Shown in pieces: positions 5,013-14,222 of a stretch of 14,709 nt of DNA. Made by a program: the position numbers and the translations under genes. Positions within the stretch are counted from its first letter, which is position 1. Every line of letters begins with the position of its first letter. The DNA is from Candidatus Mcinerneyibacteriota bacterium (GTDB taxonomy: Bacteria > AUK180 > JAQVHJ01), in the NCBI GenBank assembly GCA_030630935.1, contig DAOVMD010000023.1:1-14709 (forward strand). The letters run 5' to 3'. The notes under the pieces were generated by a model. The model was not told the origin of the DNA, searched no databases, and worked only from the letters and a program-made list of their open reading frames with translations.

Positions 5013-5041
5013 TTGACTTATATAATAAAAAATGATATAAT
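5013..5041 (+). promoter_or_regulatory. Sigma70-type promoter of the ATPase operon
   Basis: TTGACT (5013-5018) and TATAAT (5036-5041) are separated by exactly 17 bases. Eleven of twelve hexamer positions match the housekeeping consensus. Transcription would start near 5048, giving a leader of about 20 nt before the ATG at 5067, too short for a riboswitch. Surroundings are AT-rich, so chance matches occur, but spacing and placement are right. Confidence 0.75.
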
Positions 5042-5066: not shown

Positions 5067-5378
5067 ATGGAAGATAAAATACAACTGATTAGAGAAAAAG
5101 AGGCTTCTGCCCTTGAAAAAATCGAAGTGGCCAAGGCTCAATTAGAGAAAGATCTTGTTGCGGAGGTTAGGAAGTTAGATAACATCCTAAAGGCGCTCAA
5201 GGGAGAATTTATTGATAAAGAAAAATCAAAATGCAATGATACGGAAAAAGAAGCATTAAAGAAAGCAGAGTCAAATAAATTAGAGACTGACAAGAAAATT
5301 ACAGAGTTATTAAAGACCACATCTACTCTGAAAGATAAGTTAATTGTTAAAATAACTGATAACCTATTAACAGATTGA
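5067..5378 (+). CDS. ahaH: A/V-type ATPase subunit H (G), peripheral stalk
   Basis: A 103 aa, highly charged, almost entirely coiled-coil protein, rich in Lys, Glu, Leu and Ala, without a signal or membrane segment. Its start, IREKEASALEKIEVAKAQLEK, has the E-x-x-A-x-x-x-I-x-x-A-x-x-x-x-x-x spacing typical of the H/G stalk subunit of archaeal and Thermus-type rotary ATPases. That subunit pairs with subunit E to form the peripheral stalk linking the catalytic head to subunit I. Position confirms it: first gene directly before subunit I, as in archaeal HIKECFABD and Thermus GILECFABD operons. Low-complexity coiled coils are hard to assign by sequence alone, so context carries much of the call. 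Ribosome binding site (AGAGAAG) is weak; the gene is the first after the predicted promoter. Confidence 0.78.
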   Translation: MEDKIQLIREKEASALEKIEVAKAQLEKDLVAEVRKLDNILKALKGEFIDKEKSKCNDTEKEALKKAESNKLETDKKITELLKTTSTLKDKLIVKITDNLLTD

Positions 5379-5384
5379 GATTCT

Positions 5385-7373
5385 ATGTCCATTGAGAAAT
5401 TAAAGAAAGTTGTTGCAATAGGTCATAATTCCCTGAAAAAGCGATTTTTAGCAAAATTACATAAAGAAGATATTCTCCAGGTCGAGAATATAATTGAAAC
5501 TTACCAGGATTCTGATTTACTTCAAGCTCAATCAGTTCATGATTCAGGATTAGAAGAGATTATAAAGAACATTAAATTCCTCATAGACCTCTTTGAACCT
5601 TATAAAGAGCAGGAAGGTTTTTTATCCGGGATGTTCAGCTCAAAGATTGAACTTAATGACTCCGAGTTTAATAAACTCATCAGAGAGTTTGATGTTAAGG
5701 AGCTTTATTTTAAATACCAAAAAATTCATAATGAGATAAATACACTTTATATTCGCAAGAATAATTTATTAGTCAAGGAAGAACAATTAAAGCAATGGGT
5801 CGACTTAGATATTCCTCTTGAAGAGCTTGGGAAAACTGAAAGTACAGTTTCAACCCTGGGTTATTTAAAGTCAGATGATTTTTATGATTTTGCAGAAGAT
5901 CTTAATGAGCTGAAGTATATTGAGATTGAACGAATTTCATCCAGGTCAAATGATATTTTTGTTTTTATAATTTATCACAAGAATATTTCACCCCAGGTTT
6001 CTCAGATTTTTAATACTTATGATTTAAAGTTGGTTTCATTTCCTAACGAGACGAGTTTGGTCAGGCAAAGGTTAATTGCTATTACTGAAATGATTGAAAC
6101 AATTGACAAGGATATCAATGTTCTTGAAGAGCACATTAAGGAAGGGGTTTCAAATCTTTCACAGATATATGTTACGTACGATTTCTTCCAGGTAGAACAA
6201 GAGCGTTTGAAAGGTGAAGAGAACCTTGGTTTAACCGAAAAGACTTTTACATTAATTGGTTGGCTGCCGGAGAAGCATATAAAAGCATTCAATTCTATTA
6301 TTTCTGAACCTGAATTTAAATTGCTTGATATTGAAACATCTGATCCAAGCGAAGAAGATACACCACCAATTTTATTTAAAAATTCTAAAATCGTGAAACC
6401 GTTCCAATTCATTACCGACCTTTATGGACGTCCAAGTTATTTCGAGATTGATCCCTCTTTTTTCTTCTTACCTTTCTTTACTTTATTTTTCGGGATCTGC
6501 TTAACAGATGGTGGTTATGGTCTTGTGATGTTATTGGTTTTAGGGTCATTATTTATTATTCCAAGTGTCCGGAAAAAGATGAAGAATATCCCGGCATTGT
6601 TAATGATTTTATTTCTCTCCAGTATCCCAACTATTATTATGGGGGTCTTAACAGGTGGTTTCTTTGGAATTACAATACCTGTTCACTTAAAAAAATATAT
6701 ACTTCTTGATCCGCTTGACCCCGAAAAGGGAATGACTTTTATGAAGTTTGCAATTTTTGTCGGATTAATACATATTATGATTGGATTCATAACAGGTTTT
6801 GTGAAGCAGTGGCGGCTTGGAAATAAACAAGAAGCACTTCATAAAAATATTCCATGGTTATTAATAATTCCGTCATCAGTACTTTTAGTTTATAAATTTT
6901 TAGGTGCATCAGTTCCCACAACCATCCCGTTAATAGTTTTTGGGGTTGGAGTTTTATGGATAATTTTATTTGATTCATATGAAACCAAGAACCCGATAGT
7001 TCGGGTTTTTATGGGAGCTTATAATGCATTCTTCGGCATGACCGGATTATTCGGGGATGCGCTGTCGTACTTAAGACTTTTTGCGATAGGTCTTTCAACA
7101 GGAGTACTCGCATTAGTTATCAATATTCTGGCTGTAACTATTAAAGATATGATACCCATACCTGTGGTGGGAGTAGTTTTGATGATTATCTTTTTGATAA
7201 TTGGGCACATCTTAAATTTAGCAATAAATGCATTAGGCGGTTTTGTTCATACATTACGACTTCAATTTGTGGAGTTCTTCCAAAAGTTCTATGAAGGCTC
7301 CGGTCAGGAGTTTATAACATTTGGACCAAAATTCAAATATATAGATATTAACAATTCAAAAGAGAATAATTAG
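5385..7373 (+). CDS. atpI: A/V-type ATPase subunit I (a), ion-channel stator
   Basis: Membrane stator subunit of the rotary ATPase; it forms the two half-channels for the ion beside the K ring. 662 aa, normal length. Residues 1 to about 350 are the soluble arm that joins the peripheral stalks. The rest holds about eight membrane segments beginning at FFFLPFFTLFFGICLTDGGYGL (359-380). The essential channel arginine is Arg564 in GDALSYLRLFAIGLSTG, and VHTLRLQFVEFFQKFYEGSG (621-640) contains the second conserved arginine, Arg625, and Glu630. The C-terminus is short and soluble. It starts six bases after the H stop with only a GAG as ribosome binding site, so its translation probably depends on that of the previous gene. 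Confidence 0.96.
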   Translation: MSIEKLKKVVAIGHNSLKKRFLAKLHKEDILQVENIIETYQDSDLLQAQSVHDSGLEEIIKNIKFLIDLFEPYKEQEGFLSGMFSSKIELNDSEFNKLIREFDVKELYFKYQKIHNEINTLYIRKNNLLVKEEQLKQWVDLDIPLEELGKTESTVSTLGYLKSDDFYDFAEDLNELKYIEIERISSRSNDIFVFIIYHKNISPQVSQIFNTYDLKLVSFPNETSLVRQRLIAITEMIETIDKDINVLEEHIKEGVSNLSQIYVTYDFFQVEQERLKGEENLGLTEKTFTLIGWLPEKHIKAFNSIISEPEFKLLDIETSDPSEEDTPPILFKNSKIVKPFQFITDLYGRPSYFEIDPSFFFLPFFTLFFGICLTDGGYGLVMLLVLGSLFIIPSVRKKMKNIPALLMILFLSSIPTIIMGVLTGGFFGITIPVHLKKYILLDPLDPEKGMTFMKFAIFVGLIHIMIGFITGFVKQWRLGNKQEALHKNIPWLLIIPSSVLLVYKFLGASVPTTIPLIVFGVGVLWIILFDSYETKNPIVRVFMGAYNAFFGMTGLFGDALSYLRLFAIGLSTGVLALVINILAVTIKDMIPIPVVGVVLMIIFLIIGHILNLAINALGGFVHTLRLQFVEFFQKFYEGSGQEFITFGPKFKYIDINNSKENN

Positions 7374-7380
7374 GAGGTAG

Positions 7381-7842
<462 letters not shown>

Positions 7843-7853
7843 GGAAAGCAGCT

Positions 7854-8456
7854 ATGGCGATAGAAGATATTTTACAGAAAATCGACGAAGAGACTCAGGA
7901 AAAGATTAAAGAATTAAAAGAAGAATATAAACAGAAGATTGATAAAGTAAAAAATGATAATAACACTCTCTCCGATGATCTTAAGAAACGCTTGAATATT
8001 CATTTAGATAAGAAAGTTAACGAAGTAAGAAATCGAATTATAACAACTTCCTTACTTGATGAGAGGAAACGATTACTTAAGGTAAAAACCGATTCAATAA
8101 AAGAGATCTTTGATTTATTAAAAGAGAACATCAAAAAATTACCTCCAAATGATAAGAAGAAGATCTTTAAGAAATTTATAGTGAAGAATTTAGAGTCGGG
8201 GACTGAGAGCCTGGTTATTGATAAGAAGAATAAGTGGTTCAATGAGAAATTCCTTAAGGAATTGGAAAAAGATTTAGCATCAAAATCAATTAAAAAAAGT
8301 GAACTCAAGTTCTCGAAGGAAGACCTACCATTGATTGGTGATGGGGTAATTATCCGTAGCGAATTTTATGAGGTTAACTTAACTGTTGATTCCATAATCC
8401 AGGAGGAAGAAGATCGCTTGAAAACATTAATTGTAAAAGAACTTTTTGGAGAATAA
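7854..8456 (+). CDS. atpE: A/V-type ATPase subunit E, peripheral stalk
   Basis: 200 aa, the usual size. Residues 1 to about 95 form a long charged coiled coil (MAIEDILQKIDEETQEKIKELKEEY...), which wraps with subunit H. The rest is the globular C-terminal domain that binds the top of the catalytic head, including ...LPLIGDGVIIRSEFYEVNLTVDSIIQEEEDRLKTLIVKELF, which matches the family ending 'GG-x-x-x-x-x-G-x-x-x-x-NT-x-x-x-x-L-x-x-x-x-x-x-x-x-x-x-x-LF'. The start lies 11 nt after K, with AGGGA (7841-7845) overlapping the K stop. Lys content is very high. Confidence 0.92.
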   Translation: MAIEDILQKIDEETQEKIKELKEEYKQKIDKVKNDNNTLSDDLKKRLNIHLDKKVNEVRNRIITTSLLDERKRLLKVKTDSIKEIFDLLKENIKKLPPNDKKKIFKKFIVKNLESGTESLVIDKKNKWFNEKFLKELEKDLASKSIKKSELKFSKEDLPLIGDGVIIRSEFYEVNLTVDSIIQEEEDRLKTLIVKELFGE

Positions 8457-8469
8457 ATAGAGGAGCTAT

Positions 8470-9486
8470 ATGTACGAAATATTTAAACCGAAGTTCAGTC
8501 AAGATACAAAGTATGCATATTCTGTTGGAAGAGTTCGCGGGATGGAAGTTCGGCTTATGACTTCGCAGCAGATTGAAAGGTTGATTGAAACCGAGACAGC
8601 AAATGAATTTATAAATGAGTTAAATGAAACAGGCTATAAGAAATATATTCAATTCTTAAGTCCTGATTCAGATTTTGAAATAATACTACTTACAATTCTG
8701 AAAGATTTCATGAAGGAGCTTGGTAATCTATGTAGTGATAAAGATATCTTTTATGCTCTGAGTTTACCCTTTGATATTCATAACTTGAAGTTGATTTTAA
8801 AGAGATATTTAGCCGGGGAGGATTTCAAAGGTAACAATTATATTTCACTAGGAAATTATCCTGTTGAATTATTTGAAGATCTTCTGAAGGAAAAACGTTA
8901 TGATGAACTCCCTGTAGATTTCCAGGATTCGGTTAATGCAATTATTAAGGATTATTCAGCGTCTGAGAACATAAATATCGTTGATATATTTCTTGATAAA
9001 TTATTATATAACCGTTGGATTGTAATAGGTAAATATTTAAGGATTGAATACCTGGTCAATCTTGCAAGAATTTCCATTGATATGGCTAACTTTGGAATGC
9101 TTCTTAGAATAAAAGGTTTTAATCGTAATCCAAGATTATTACGGATTTCATTAATCGAAAACGGTTTTTTCCCGAATGAATATTTAATTGATTTATTTGA
9201 TAATGATTTCAAGGTAATAGTGCAGTTATTAAATGAAGACCCATACCGTAAACCTTTTATTGGGATAGAAGATAATATGACAGTGATTGATGTGATTGAG
9301 AGATTTGAAGTCAATGCAAGGCATCTTATCCTTGAATATTGTAAACTGGCAAATTACGTTTCGTTCGGAGTTGAACCTTTAATCGCGTTATATATCAGGA
9401 AAAATGAAGAGTTACGAATATTACGCACAATTTATCTTGGGAGAAAAAACAACTTTTCAAATGAACAGATTAAAAAATTATTATGA
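8470..9486 (+). CDS. atpC: A/V-type ATPase subunit C (d/AC39 family)
   Basis: 338 aa protein of the V0D/AC39 family. It caps the K ring and couples it to the central shaft (D and F subunits). The start YAYSVGRVRGMEVRLMTSQQIERLIETETANEFINEL is the family's opening 'YAYA-x-x-R-x-R-x-x-E-x-x-L-x-x-x-x-x-x-x-L'. The rest is all-helical with three related helical repeats, and the end ...[35 protein letters not shown] matches the usual 'P-x-x-Y-x-x-x-x-E-x-E-x-x-x-x-R-x-I-x-x-x-K'. AGAGGAG precedes the ATG. The stop overlaps the F start by four bases (ATGA). Its shaft partner D is not in the window. Confidence 0.93.
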   Translation: MYEIFKPKFSQDTKYAYSVGRVRGMEVRLMTSQQIERLIETETANEFINELNETGYKKYIQFLSPDSDFEIILLTILKDFMKELGNLCSDKDIFYALSLPFDIHNLKLILKRYLAGEDFKGNNYISLGNYPVELFEDLLKEKRYDELPVDFQDSVNAIIKDYSASENINIVDIFLDKLLYNRWIVIGKYLRIEYLVNLARISIDMANFGMLLRIKGFNRNPRLLRISLIENGFFPNEYLIDLFDNDFKVIVQLLNEDPYRKPFIGIEDNMTVIDVIERFEVNARHLILEYCKLANYVSFGVEPLIALYIRKNEELRILRTIYLGRKNNFSNEQIKKLL

Positions 9487-9800
9487 ACCCAATTGCATTT
9501 TTAGGTGATAAAGAAAGCATAACCGGATTTAAAGCTTTTGGAGTATCAATATATATAGTTGATGACCCTGAAAAAGTAAAACCGGTTTTTGATGAGGTTA
9601 TAAAAAATCAGCATAAGCTGGTTTTCATTACGGAAGACCTTGCAGATTATTTGGATGATGAAATTAATAAATATTTTTCACAAGCTTATCCAATCATTTC
9701 TATTTTCCCGGGTTTGAAGGAATCTTCGTCGTCGGGTGAAGAAAAGATTTTAAGAATAATTGAACTGACTGTTGGTTCAAATATTTTGAAGGAGAAATAA
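9483..9800 (+). CDS. atpF: A/V-type ATPase subunit F, central shaft
   Basis: 105 aa, normal for the shaft subunit F (NtpG in E. hirae), which sits on subunit D and regulates ATP hydrolysis. Start [21 protein letters not shown] is the family pattern 'I-x-x-x-GD-x-x-x-x-GF-x-x-x-G'. [14 protein letters not shown] matches 'I-x-x-TE-x-x-A-x-x-x-x', and [31 protein letters not shown] the nucleotide-binding-like end with P-x-I-x-x-x-P. Translation is coupled to subunit C by the ATGA overlap. The protein it is known to clasp, subunit D, is missing from this operon. Confidence 0.9.
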
Positions 9801-9801
9801 T

Positions 9802-11586
9802 ATGTCAAAAAATGTCAAAGAGAAAATTGGTAAGATTAGAAAAGTTTCTGGTCCCCTTGTAATTGCTTCTCAGATGGAACATGCAAAGATGTATGATGTT
9901 GTAAAAGTTGGGGAGAAGAATTTAATAGGCGAGATTATTGAGATTCATAGTGACGAAGCCTACATCCAGGTTTACGAGGAGACGGGAGGACTAGGTCCTG
10001 GTGAGAACGTTTATTCTACAAATGAACCTCTAAGTGTTGAGCTTGCCCCTGGATTATTAACTTCCATCTATGATGGAATCCAAAGACCTTTGGATAAGAT
10101 CAGAGAGATTTCCGGAGATTACATCACAAGAGGTATTGACGTTCCCGGGATTGACCGGGAGAAGAAATGGGAATTTAAAGCGGTTTTGAAAAAAGGCGAT
10201 GCGGCAGTTCCTGGTGATATAATTGGAACTGTTCAAGAGACAGAAATTATTGAACATAGGATTATGATTCCCCCGCATTTCCCAAATGGAAAAATTAAGG
10301 AACTTAAATCGGGCACTTTTACTGTTACTGAAATACTTGGAACTTTAGAGACAGATAAGGGTGATTTTGAATTAAAAATGATGCACCGTTGGCCAGTTAG
10401 GAAATCCAGACCAATATTAGAACAACTTCCACCAACAATTCCCCTAGTCTCAGGTCAAAGAGTTATTGATGCGTTTTTCCCGATTGCTAAAGGTGGAACT
10501 GCTTGTGTTCCTGGACCATTCGGTTCTGGGAAAACAGTAATTCAGCATCAGTTAGCAAAGTGGGCAGATGCTCAGATTATTGTTTATGTTGGTTGTGGAG
10601 AAAGAGGTAATGAGATGACTGATGTTTTAATGGAGTTCCCTGAATTGATCGATCCGCATACCGGAAAACCTTTGATGTCACGAACAGTCCTGATTGCAAA
10701 TACGAGTAATATGCCTGTTGCTGCACGCGAAGCTTCTGTTTTTACCGGCATAACAATCGCTGAATATTTTAGAGATATGGGATATTCGGTTGCTTTAATG
10801 GCTGATTCAACCAGCCGTTGGGCAGAAGCAATGAGAGAGATTTCCGGTCGATTAGAAGAGATGCCCGGGGAAGAAGGATATCCAGCCTATTTAGGGTCAA
10901 AGATTGCCAGTTTCTATGAACGAGCAGGAAGAGTAAAATGCTTGTCAGGGAAGGGTGATAGGGAAGGAGCACTTTCAGTAATTGGTGCAGTATCTCCTCC
11001 AGGTGGGGATTTCTCTGACCCGGTTGTTCAGTCAACATTGAGGGTGGTTAAGGTTTTCTGGGCTCTTGAATCTGCACTTGCATATACCAGACATTTTCCT
11101 GCAATTTCATGGTTGAATTCATATTCACTGTATCATGATAATATCGAAGAATATTTAGTAGAAAAAATTAGTAAAGATTGGCCGGATATGACAGCTGAAG
11201 CAATGCGAATTCTTCAGGAGGAATCTGAGTTAATTGAGATTGTTCGATTAGTTGGTAAGGAGACCCTGTCAAAGAATGACCAGTTAACTCTTGAGACTGC
11301 AAGGTCAATTAGAGAAGATTTCCTGCATCAGAACGCATTCCATGAAGTGGATACCTATACCTCTTTTAAGAAAATGTATAAGATGTTGGGTCTAATCTTA
11401 ACCTTCCATCATCATGTCCGTAGTATCCTGGATAAAATTACTCAGCCAATTGAAGATGTCTTTAATTTACCGGTTAGAGAAAAAATTGTAAGAGCAAAAT
11501 ATATTCCGGAAAACAATTTAGATGAATTTGAAAAGATTGCGGAGAGCTTTAAAGAAGAACTTTCTAATTTAGCAAAATGGGGTTAA
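9802..11586 (+). CDS. atpA: A/V-type ATPase catalytic subunit A
   Basis: ATP-hydrolysing subunit of the rotary head. 594 aa, normal. An N-terminal beta-barrel (about 10-75) is followed by the extra 'non-homologous' domain of A subunits (about 115-190). Walker A is GPFGSGKT (238-245), the form used by archaeal A subunits; the catalytic glutamate is Glu267 in VGCGERGNE. Walker [11 protein letters not shown] is at 331-340, followed by the hallmark [27 protein letters not shown] and [18 protein letters not shown] helical C-terminal domain completes it. All catalytic motifs are intact. AAGGAGA lies upstream, and it starts 2 nt after F. Three A subunits normally alternate with three B subunits; no B gene follows. 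Two bases after its stop begins a protease gene. Confidence 0.98.
11579..11582 (+). promoter_or_regulatory. Ribosome binding site deciding the prsW start
   Basis: GGGG, inside the last codons of subunit A, lies six bases before the ATG at 11589 and makes it the preferred start. The upstream ATG at 11577 has no purine-rich Shine-Dalgarno at the right distance (it follows TTCTAATTTAGCAA). Confidence 0.55.
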
Positions 11587-11588
11587 AA

Positions 11589-12575
11589 ATGAGTATGCTT
11601 CCTTGGATTTTATTATTTTTATCGGTTTTAGCTGCAACTATTCCATATATATTATTGGTTTTATTTATATGGTGGATGGATAGATATGAACGAGAACCTT
11701 TTGGGTATGTGGTTCTATCAACTCTATGGGGTGCGATAGGCGCAATTATTATTGGTATTATTTTTAGTCTAATATTATTGATTCCGGCAGCCATGTTAGT
11801 TGGAAAAAATATGGCAGATTTATTCGGAACAATTTTAATCGCTCCAATCGCAGAAGAGATTTCAAAGGGGATTTTTATATTAATTATCTTCAAATCATTA
11901 CAGTTTGATAATGCAACAGATGGGTTCGTATATGGTGCTGCAAGCGGTCTTGGTTTTGCGATGACTGAGAACTTCCTCTATTTCAGCCAATCCGTTGGAA
12001 GTTTACAGAACTGGATAATAATTGTAGTATTAAGAACACTCTTTACCGGAATTATGCATATGATAACTTGTGCAATATTCGGTGCAGCAGTTGGTTATGT
12101 GAAATATAATAAATCAATGGCAAAAAAGATACTCATACCTCTATTCGGTTTGGGTATTGGTATGGGAATCCATTCAATCTGGAATATTACTGCAGTTTGG
12201 CAGTCAAAAGATCCAAATACCTATCCGCTTGTATGGGGAATTCTTCTTCTCTTTATTGCACTTACAACTATTATAGTATTATTTCTATTATCGCTTTCTA
12301 ATGAAAGGAAAATTATTATTAAACACCTAACTGCAGAATCGGAGGCGGGGCTCATCCCCAAAGAACATATCTTCTATATTTCAAACTTCCTGAAACGGAA
12401 TCGCCCTGGTTGGATTCATCCGAGTATTAGAAAAAAATATATTGATTGTGCAGTGCACCTTGCATTTCGCCAAGATCAACTTGAAAATGCGGGTAATCCA
12501 AAGAAAATTGAACTCCTGAAACGTGACATTGAAAAACAACGTCAGGAGATAAAAAGACTTCTTGGTAAGGAATAA
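11589..12575 (+). CDS. prsW: PrsW-family intramembrane protease
   Basis: Polytopic membrane protease of the PrsW (CPBP-like glutamic) family; the Bacillus subtilis member cuts anti-sigma factor RsiW. 328 aa from this start; an ATG at 11577, overlapping subunit A, would add four residues. Eight or so hydrophobic segments fill residues 4-237. Family motifs in order: DRYEREP (31-37), APIAEEISKG (85-94) with Glu89-Glu90, FVYGAASGLGFAMTEN (113-128), RTLFTGIMHMITCAIFGAAVGY (149-170) with His157, and GMGIHSIWN with His195. After the last helix comes a charged soluble tail of about 90 residues (237-328) ending in a short coiled coil, an extension whose role I do not know. The gene follows subunit A by two bases, so it should be translated with the ATPase. 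The substrate is unknown; an anti-sigma or membrane protein is only a guess. Confidence 0.88.
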   Translation: MSMLPWILLFLSVLAATIPYILLVLFIWWMDRYEREPFGYVVLSTLWGAIGAIIIGIIFSLILLIPAAMLVGKNMADLFGTILIAPIAEEISKGIFILIIFKSLQFDNATDGFVYGAASGLGFAMTENFLYFSQSVGSLQNWIIIVVLRTLFTGIMHMITCAIFGAAVGYVKYNKSMAKKILIPLFGLGIGMGIHSIWNITAVWQSKDPNTYPLVWGILLLFIALTTIIVLFLLSLSNERKIIIKHLTAESEAGLIPKEHIFYISNFLKRNRPGWIHPSIRKKYIDCAVHLAFRQDQLENAGNPKKIELLKRDIEKQRQEIKRLLGKE

Positions 12576-12604
12576 GCATCAAGTATTAAATGCTTACAAT
12601 ACTT
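12573..12604 (+). other. Two overlapping, mutually exclusive hairpins at the prsW stop
   Basis: TAAGCAT (12573-12579, including the stop codon) pairs with ATGCTTA (12590-12596), and AAGTATT (12581-12587) pairs with AATACTT (12598-12604). Each stem is 7 bp; the two interleave, and the linkers are too short for both to form as a normal pseudoknot. No T tract follows, so this is not a standard terminator. AT-rich, could be chance. Confidence 0.35.
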
Positions 12605-12691
12605 AGTCTCAATCTAGATCTGTTATATTTAAATAAATGAATTAATACGTAAAAAATTATCATTCTCATAATAGTCATGAATGGCGAATTC

Positions 12692-12708
12692 GGTTAACTC
12701 TGTTAACC
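12692..12708. repeat. Perfect 7-bp hairpin GGTTAAC
   Basis: GGTTAAC (12692-12698), loop TCT, GTTAACC (12702-12708). The second arm also overlaps an alternative 8-bp inverted repeat, TAACCTCA (12704-12711) with TGAGGTTA (12763-12770). No T tract follows. Confidence 0.6.
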
Positions 12709-12734
12709 TCACAGAGACTTGAGATCTGAGAAAT

Positions 12735-12760
12735 GAGAACAGAAAATTGAAAGCAGAAAA
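12735..12760 (+). repeat. AG-rich 26-bp repeat, copy 2
   Basis: Matches 4697-4722 at 22 of 26 positions in the same orientation. It is preceded at 12711-12720 by ACAGAGACTT, which is also present at 4835-4844 in the other gap, though in a different order relative to the 26-mer. Confidence 0.5.
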
Positions 12761-12792
12761 AATGAGGTTATCTTCTTTTTCAGTAAGAGTAT

Positions 12793-12895
12793 GAGTAAGT
12801 GTAAGAGACGTTTGAGATAAAATACTCCCCGATTAGGGGAGCACCCATGAACCACTATTTCGGGTTCAGGGCTAAAGAACTCTTACTTCTTACTC
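12793..12895 (+). ncRNA. Candidate structured RNA with a three-way junction
   Basis: A long-range stem closes the region: GAGTAAG (12793-12799) pairs with CTTACTC (12889-12895), and TAAGAG (12802-12807) with CTCTTA (12880-12885), separated by a 2x3 internal loop. Inside stand two hairpins: CTCCCC/GGGGAG (12825-12830 with 12836-12841, loop GATTA) and CCC-A-TGAACC/GGTTCA-GGG (12844-12853 with 12863-12871, one bulged A). Together they form a three-way junction of 103 nt. A weak promoter-like pair, TTGAAA (12747-12752) and TATCTT (12769-12774), lies just upstream. The strand is uncertain, as the stems are nearly symmetric. It could also be a miniature mobile element with inverted ends. No family is recognised. 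Confidence 0.4.
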
Positions 12896-12901
12896 GAACT
12901 G

Positions 12902-12923
12902 AAGTTTCCGAGAGGAAACTTTT
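12902..12923 (+). terminator. Perfect 8-bp hairpin with GAGA loop, weak terminator candidate
   Basis: AAGTTTCC (12902-12909) and GGAAACTT (12914-12921) are fully complementary around GAGA, a GNRA-type tetraloop. Four T's (12920-12923) overlap the end of the stem. It comes right after the branched fold and could terminate that RNA or the ATPase-prsW transcript. The T tract is short and then turns to CCCC, so termination is uncertain. Confidence 0.4.
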
Positions 12924-13035
12924 CCCCAGGCTATGAATCTTTTTCATAAGAATCGCAAACGATTTAAAAAAGTCTAAGCGAAGCGAGTTTTTATTTTTAT
13001 ACATTTCATACGGGAGGGTTAAGTTCAATTGGTCA

Positions 13036-13054
13036 GGGTTAAGGGCCTTAACCC
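13036..13054. repeat. Perfect 9-bp inverted repeat GGGTTAAGG
   Basis: GGGTTAAGG (13036-13044), a single G, then CCTTAACCC (13046-13054). A related GGGTTAAG occurs just upstream near 13016-13023. It is the strongest simple palindrome in the gap between the convergent genes; no T tract follows on either strand. Confidence 0.65.
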
Positions 13055-13103
13055 CTACTGCAACATAATAAATAATGCAAAGCAATCTTAAATTACTAAT
13101 ATT

Positions 13104-13121
13104 AAATCATAAATCATAAAT
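13104..13121. repeat. Heptamer tandem repeat AAATCAT
   Basis: Two perfect AAATCAT units (13104-13110, 13111-13117) and a partial AAAT. Same period as the CATTCTT repeat at 4958, different sequence. Confidence 0.6.
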
Positions 13122-13140
13122 GTGCAGCGAAGCGAAACTA

Positions 13141-13178
13141 TGAGATTGCCGCGGTCGCTTCGCTTTCTCGCAATGACA
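13141..13178 (-). repeat. TGTCATTGCGAG palindromic repeat, copy 2
   Basis: 38-bp element, inverted relative to copy 1. Read on the minus strand its arms are TGTCATTGCGAG and GCGGCAATCTCA; the middle is 14 bp and contains GCGAAGCG. It begins 24 nt after the stop of the minus-strand TPR gene, so, like copy 1, it stands just 3' of a gene and in the same sense. No T tract follows, so it is not a standard terminator. Confidence 0.75.
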
Positions 13179-13202
13179 TTCTTTTGTGTTCGAATGATTA
13201 GT

Positions 13203-14222
13203 TTAATTCGTAATATTCCAAAAATTATTCTCTTTAATGAGAATGAATTGTCTTTTTCCGGAGACTGAATAAGTTTTCCCTATAGAGAATTTGGGATTTT
13301 TCCCTGCCATATCTTCTCCTGAATATATTCCTGAGATGGAAACCTTACAGTCAACAACAGCATTATCTCCGTCAACTATCAAATTCAATTCAGTAACTTT
13401 GTATTTCAAATTATCAAATAGAGTAAACCAGAAATCATTATAGTAGGCAACAATATCCTCATGTCCTCCAATTGAACTCGCTGCTGATTTTGAATATAAA
13501 GTTCGTATAACTTTAATGTTTTTTCTTTCAAATGAAATTCCAAGTGTCATTATTGTATTCTTTACTTTTTCTTTATCTGATCCGATCGGAGCTGAAGTCG
13601 TAGGTGTACTACCAAGCTTTTCAAGTCCCTCAATTATCTTTATCATTTCCAGGGCTTTCGCTTTATTCTCTCCATATACTAAGAGGAATTCTGCTTTTGC
13701 CTGAGGCAATTTATCATTCGTCATTAATTCAAGCCCCTTAATATAATGATCTTTTACATCTGTACCCCCGCCTAATTTTTTTATCTTAGCTTTCGCAGTG
13801 GGAATTAACTGCTTTTCTGCATTTGGAAATCTTAAGAATTTTTGAAATGCAATTATCGCATCATTTTTCTTCCCCTGTTTATCATAAACAACTCCCAGGT
13901 TATAATAAATTATCGGTTGATCTGCTTTTAATTCAAGGGATTTATTGAATGCAGCAGCTGCTTCACTCCACTTCTTTTCCTTTGATTTCGCAATACCCAA
14001 TAATGAATAACAATGGGTAATTCTGTCTTTTATTTCAATCTCTTGTGAAGGATCAAATGTTAGGACTATTTTATATTCTGCAATTGCAGCTTCATACTTT
14101 TCATTTGAAAGATAGTTATCCGCAATTCTTTTATGCCTTTCTGCTGTCTCGACATTACCACCAAATACTACAATTGAAAATAGTACAATCAAAATAAATG
14201 TTATACTTAATACCTTTTTCAT
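13203..14222 (-). CDS. Exported TPR protein with C-terminal NTF2-like domain
   Basis: 339 aa. Signal peptide MKK plus a hydrophobic run to about residue 20 (ends VVFGG; no lipobox Cys), so it is sent to the periplasm or stays anchored. Three TPR-like repeats follow: about 29-62 (HKRIADNYLSNEKYEAAIAEY..DPSQ), 66-103 (..WSEAAAAFNKSLELKAD) and 104-137 (IIYYNLGVVYDKQGKKNDAIIAF). A helical part continues to 203, then a Ser/Thr/Pro linker (205-215). Residues 216-339 (DKEKVKNTIMTLGISFERKNIKVIRTLYSK..., then strands ending GKRQFILIKENNFWNITN) look like an NTF2/SnoaL fold, a cone used for ligand binding or assembly. Function unknown. It has its own promoter and a strong AGGAGG (14228-14233), and converges with prsW. 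Confidence 0.8.
   Translation of the reverse strand: MKKVLSITFILIVLFSIVVFGGNVETAERHKRIADNYLSNEKYEAAIAEYKIVLTFDPSQEIEIKDRITHCYSLLGIAKSKEKKWSEAAAAFNKSLELKADQPIIYYNLGVVYDKQGKKNDAIIAFQKFLRFPNAEKQLIPTAKAKIKKLGGGTDVKDHYIKGLELMTNDKLPQAKAEFLLVYGENKAKALEMIKIIEGLEKLGSTPTTSAPIGSDKEKVKNTIMTLGISFERKNIKVIRTLYSKSAASSIGGHEDIVAYYNDFWFTLFDNLKYKVTELNLIVDGDNAVVDCKVSISGIYSGEDMAGKNPKFSIGKTYSVSGKRQFILIKENNFWNITN

Follow-up and report, generated by a model that had tools for sequence, protein, structure and literature searches.

Gene content of the window

The window, i.e., the whole stretch of DNA that was analyzed (14,709 nucleotides), spans contig C276 from end to end. It belongs to a metagenome-assembled genome (MAG) that totals 3.16 Mb over 471 contigs and is 80% complete. 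Open reading frames, together with Pfam and NCBIfam family searches, gave the plus-strand gene order H-I-K-E-C-F-A, followed by prsW. The first gene (5067-5378) encodes a subunit G/H-like coiled-coil protein of 103 aa that matched no Pfam or NCBIfam family and was named for where it lies, ahead of I, an arrangement shared with the sister family described below. It is followed by the genes for V/A-ATPase subunit I (5385-7373; PF01496, E 7.7e-32), the double-hairpin proteolipid subunit K (7384-7842; PF00137, and above the cut-off of the NCBIfam K equivalog), subunit E (7854-8456; PF01991), subunit C, or AC39/d (8470-9486; PF01992), subunit F (9483-9800; PF01990) and the catalytic subunit A (9802-11586; TIGR01043/NF003220), which is intact and full length at 594 aa. 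All seven subunit genes are open reading frames, and neighboring genes of the operon either overlap or are separated by no more than 13 nt.

The place usual for B and D is occupied by a gene for a PrsW-family intramembrane protease (11577-12575, plus strand; PF13367, E 1.2e-36), and neither B nor D is found anywhere in the window. The reading frames pass cleanly across the A-prsW junction. Three positions were considered for the prsW start: an in-frame ATG at 11577, which would overlap A; the ATG at 11589, two nucleotides past the A stop codon, which ends at 11586; and 11595, with which the start in the sister genus aligns. On the far side of a gap (12576-13202) lies a convergent gene that family searches assigned to a TPR protein (13203-14222, minus strand). 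An earlier note on this DNA had described the same gene order, an intact A, prsW two bases beyond it, an operon without B and D and a convergent gene to the right of the gap, all of which is borne out here, with I, K, E, C, F and A identified by family matches and H by position. The note had also called the gap repeat-rich, and in this it was mistaken: the repeat scan found no direct or inverted repeat of at least 12 nt in 12576-13202. A few short direct repeats, of the GTTCAAGTGTTATT kind, occur near the contig end (14277-14529).

Scans for promoters and terminators returned counts at chance level, and one site was worth mention. This is a promoter-like sequence, TTGACT-17-TATAAT with an extended -10 TG (5013-5041, plus strand), which has 11 of 12 consensus matches and lies 25 nt before the H start codon. 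As the site count in the region is no higher than expected by chance, its identity as the operon promoter is suggestive only.

The prsW product scored 126.6 bits against PF13367 (gathering threshold 23.5), which places it in the PrsW family by domain. It shares with PrsW intramembrane proteases an EExxK motif and two histidines in predicted membrane segments, and differs in being a 332-aa protein with an added C-terminal part. Residues E93, E94, K97, E131, H161 and H199 are invariant in both genera of the window's family; the catalytic residues are presumably among these glutamates, lysine and histidines. The NCBIfam equivalog for PrsW, the RsiW site-1 protease (NF033739), was not reached (63.3 bits vs a cut-off of 225), and the protein is therefore counted as PrsW-family only, not as an RsiW-cleaving PrsW.

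B and D on a separate contig

The earlier note reasoned that B and D must lie at another locus unless the A-prsW junction is a rearrangement or assembly artefact, and proposed a genome search for them as a separate operon and a comparison of gene order in relatives. A search of the genome with A matched three contigs: C276 itself, C112 and C447. In the available part of the genome this search found no other alpha/beta-type subunit, such as that of an F-type ATPase. Contig C447 (12.6 kb) carries gspE-aspS-phoH-yqfF-ybeY-B-D-orf332 and a radical SAM gene; the names gspE, aspS, phoH, yqfF and ybeY rest on inspection of the sequences and on conserved gene order rather than on family searches. Both B (C447:7687-9111, 474 aa) and D (C447:9120-9749, 209 aa) are intact, and the GC contents of C276 (0.347) and C447 (0.351) are alike. 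The genes for A, B, C, D, E, F, I and K, which define a V/A-type rotary ATPase, are thus all found in one genome, distributed over the window and C447. A single operon for all of them, which is usual and not defining, was not found, as B and D lie on C447, and likewise apart in G001. By gene content, then, the ATPase lacks no parts; B and D appear in another operon of the same genome.

A second ATPase is partly encoded on contig C112 (3.9 kb), where an A gene, truncated and with 53% identity to that of the window, precedes its own B and D and a USP-like gene. The D genes of C447 and C112 both scored above the Pfam cut-off. G001 (L071) has a second A/V-type ATPase in the order C-I-K-F-E-A-B-D-USP, and runs that match it in part or resemble it occur in L006, in L079 of the sister family and in L186 of the distant genome G267. 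The K subunits of L071 and L079, seen in G001 and G002, are without the Na+ ligand set discussed below, so the second ATPase is probably proton-driven.

Gene order was compared with one other genus of the window's family, represented by an independent draft genome (G001), and with five genomes of its sister family (G002-G006). Contig C220 of G001 ends inside A, with prsW 1 nt past A and 67% identical to the window prsW, and contig C195 carries yqfF-ybeY-B-D-orf332, whose products are 91% (B), 86% (D) and 81% (orf332) identical to those of C447. Both junctions, A-prsW and ybeY-B-D, therefore recur in an independent assembly, in agreement with the earlier note's view of a real, settled arrangement. 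Because the MAG is fragmented, the assignment of C447 to the same cell depends on this parallel and on the tree position of its B. The G001 A (L069) contains an in-frame TAG in its C-terminal part, roughly 140 nt inside the contig border at which the gene breaks off; this could be a contig-end or sequencing error, or a real lesion.

In the sister family the operon is contiguous (H-I-K-E-C-F-A-B-D-orf332) and the aspS-phoH-yqfF-ybeY cluster is elsewhere. All five genomes have B immediately behind A; in four of them D and orf332 come next, and the G005 contig ends inside B. The order is the same as in the window up to A, and A (67-68% identical), B (75-81%), D and orf332 are all orthologous; the difference is that the sister-family operon is unsplit and has no prsW, and that the phoH-yqfF-ybeY cluster is without B-D. 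B was found behind ybeY in none of the five genomes. The gene after ybeY is amidohydrolase-like in three; in G006 a 178-aa gene intervenes before an amidohydrolase-like gene, and in G005 an intergenic gap is followed by a gene on the opposite strand.

The gene orf332 (about 335 aa; L007:9762-10760, plus strand; L070:3790-4791, minus strand; L074:11961-12968, plus strand) comes directly after D in each of the two families of the class, and has moved along with B-D. Its product matched no Pfam family above the cut-off (weak match to DUF4388, E 0.024), and its AlphaFold2 model, confident in roughly the C-terminal two thirds only, gave no meaningful fold match. It is possibly an unrecognized accessory protein of this ATPase.

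Probably one enzyme from two loci

Maximum-likelihood trees were built separately for A and for B. In the A tree the window A branches next to the A subunits of the sister family (98/96), and in the B tree the C447 and G001 B subunits together form the sister group of those of that family (98/97). The A and B copies of C112 group with the second ATPase of relatives. As both halves of the split operon are placed beside an intact operon in which B, D and orf332 form an unbroken run, these three genes probably left as one block. The joined order was taken as ancestral since it is by far the commonest: 77 of 80 named loci have B immediately after A. The simplest history is a single move of B-D-orf332 to a place behind ybeY in the ancestor of the family. 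By this comparison the split is a genuine feature that dates back to the level of the family and has persisted through the divergence of two genera.

The closest solved structures to A, B and K are subunits of the Enterococcus hirae Na+-ATPase (3VR2 for A; NtpK, 2BL2, for K). When K was aligned to 2BL2, residues L61, T64, Q65, Y68, Q110 and E139 (E. hirae numbering) were all matched. The Na+ ligands of E. hirae NtpK are Leu61, Thr64, Gln65, Gln110 and Glu139 (PMC2359735), and the window K has all five of this Ntp-type set. Subunit A keeps the P-loop, GPFGSGKT, and the GER motif. In the sequence alignment the C447 B has an arginine at 350, aligned to R350 of E. hirae B, so that the P-loop in A and the arginine in B of the Ntp type are both present; R350 is taken here to be the arginine finger. 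The E. hirae ntp Na+-ATPase has the identical K ligand set and the same kinds of subunit (I, K, E, C, F, A, B and D); the arrangement here differs from the ntp operon in that its genes occupy two loci, B-D-orf332 follows ybeY, prsW follows A and a small H-like gene comes first.

The explanation preferred here, with a probability of roughly 0.93, is that the window holds half of a split Na+-translocating V/A-ATPase operon from which B-D-orf332 has moved, and that the complete enzyme is assembled in trans. The matching A and B trees, the GC contents, the E. hirae structure matches and the kept residues make a complete Na+-ATPase from two transcripts the most likely outcome. In the family ancestor, the B-D-orf332 block would have been excised precisely at the end of A and reinserted in the phoH-yqfF-ybeY cluster, downstream of ybeY, and a prsW gene would have come to occupy the vacated place directly behind A. 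One transcript would supply H, I, K, E, C, F and A from the window locus and another B and D from the phoH-ybeY locus, and the products would join in trans as an A3B3 head, a D-F shaft, peripheral stalks and an I/K membrane part. Co-expression of the two halves and assembly of their products are predicted, as is Na+ as the transported ion. The prsW gene would be a mere passenger on the transcript.

An addition to the split-operon reading would be a functional tie between prsW and the ATPase: the protease, translationally coupled to A, might for instance turn over the membrane part of the enzyme or control its quality. The tight A-prsW junction suggests cotranscription and perhaps translational coupling, a gap of 1-2 nt is kept in two genera, and the protease motif residues are conserved. 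Tight spacing alone is, however, common among unrelated operon neighbors, and in a sample of 386 genomes no prsW adjoined A outside the window's family; the next best prsW relatives in that sample were at most about 36% identical and lay either at a distance or on a different contig. In the sister family the PrsW-like proteins are remote ones only (26-31% identical), encoded elsewhere in the genome. A functional tie is accordingly considered unlikely. Still more doubtful is a family-specific two-locus control in which the PrsW made directly behind A regulates the amount or assembly of the Na+-ATPase, and the transfer of B-D to the phoH-ybeY operon brings the two parts of the head and the shaft under separate control.

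It is very improbable that the window A pairs with the B and D of C112, leaving the C447 B-D genes as orphans or serving something else. A second A-B-D set is indeed present in the genome, but C112 has its own A beside its B and D, and the trees pair the window A with the C447 B, and the C112 A with the C112 B. Moreover, an intact C447 B that shares 91% identity with its counterpart in the other genus implies strong constraint. No better placed is the idea of a degrading ATPase that has shed its head and shaft genes, with prsW in their place. The stop in the G001 A fragment near its contig end might speak for it; however, the seven window subunits are open, the functional residues of A, K and B are kept, and B and D are intact in both genera. 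The faintest case is that of a misassembly or binning artefact at the A-prsW junction, with B and D truly following A. In its favor are the fragmented MAG and the direct A-B order at nearly all named loci of other genomes; against it, the independently assembled G001 repeats both junctions at 67-91% protein identity and the frames read cleanly across. Misassembly is thus excluded as the main cause, and both it and decay were rejected on the G001 parallel and the intact residues. Of the options that the earlier note had offered, B and D at another locus is borne out by the genome search, and the arrangement is a real rearrangement relative to the sister family.

Other split operons

In the 386-genome sample, in which the coordinates of A and B were compared by eye, the B accompanying most A genes was no more than about 0.4 kb away and shared both contig and strand with A, and in about ten genomes (e.g., G007, G009, G126, G078 and G272) 1-8 kb lay between them. 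In G130 and G267, A and B-D are on different contigs, well inside them or flanked by other genes. There (G130, L177/L178; G267, L175/L176), F-A is in one place and B-D lies in another, beside a DnaK-like gene and plsY-gpsA. The two genomes resemble the window's family in having A and B-D on different contigs, and differ in the insertion place and in having no prsW. Their shared B-D neighborhood and their grouping in both the A and B trees suggest that they probably represent one further split event. Judged from gene order and trees, the split of A from B-D arose at least once more outside the window's family. A literature search found no paper on that family. In Ignicoccus hospitalis, the ATP synthase cluster is disrupted and the genome is predicted to encode the complete enzyme (PMC2614490); its ATPase genes are likewise spread over separate loci, with different insertion places and no prsW. 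These further cases make the split a rare but recurring arrangement.

The rotary ATPase head requires A and B in equal numbers. That such an enzyme can nevertheless be run from two unrelated operons offers a small natural test case for operon order as a constraint on the assembly of large complexes. When an ATPase operon on a metagenomic contig looks 'incomplete', the absent subunit may still be encoded elsewhere in the genome. The finding itself is a family-level gene-order variant of a known enzyme, of limited wider interest, and does not change ideas on mechanism.

In G285 (82% complete; L185), an F-A pair is followed by a nitroreductase-like gene, and no B match was listed. In G007 (L072) and G009 (L073) the ATPase genes are spread, with several unrelated genes between them, and may represent stages of operon break-up.
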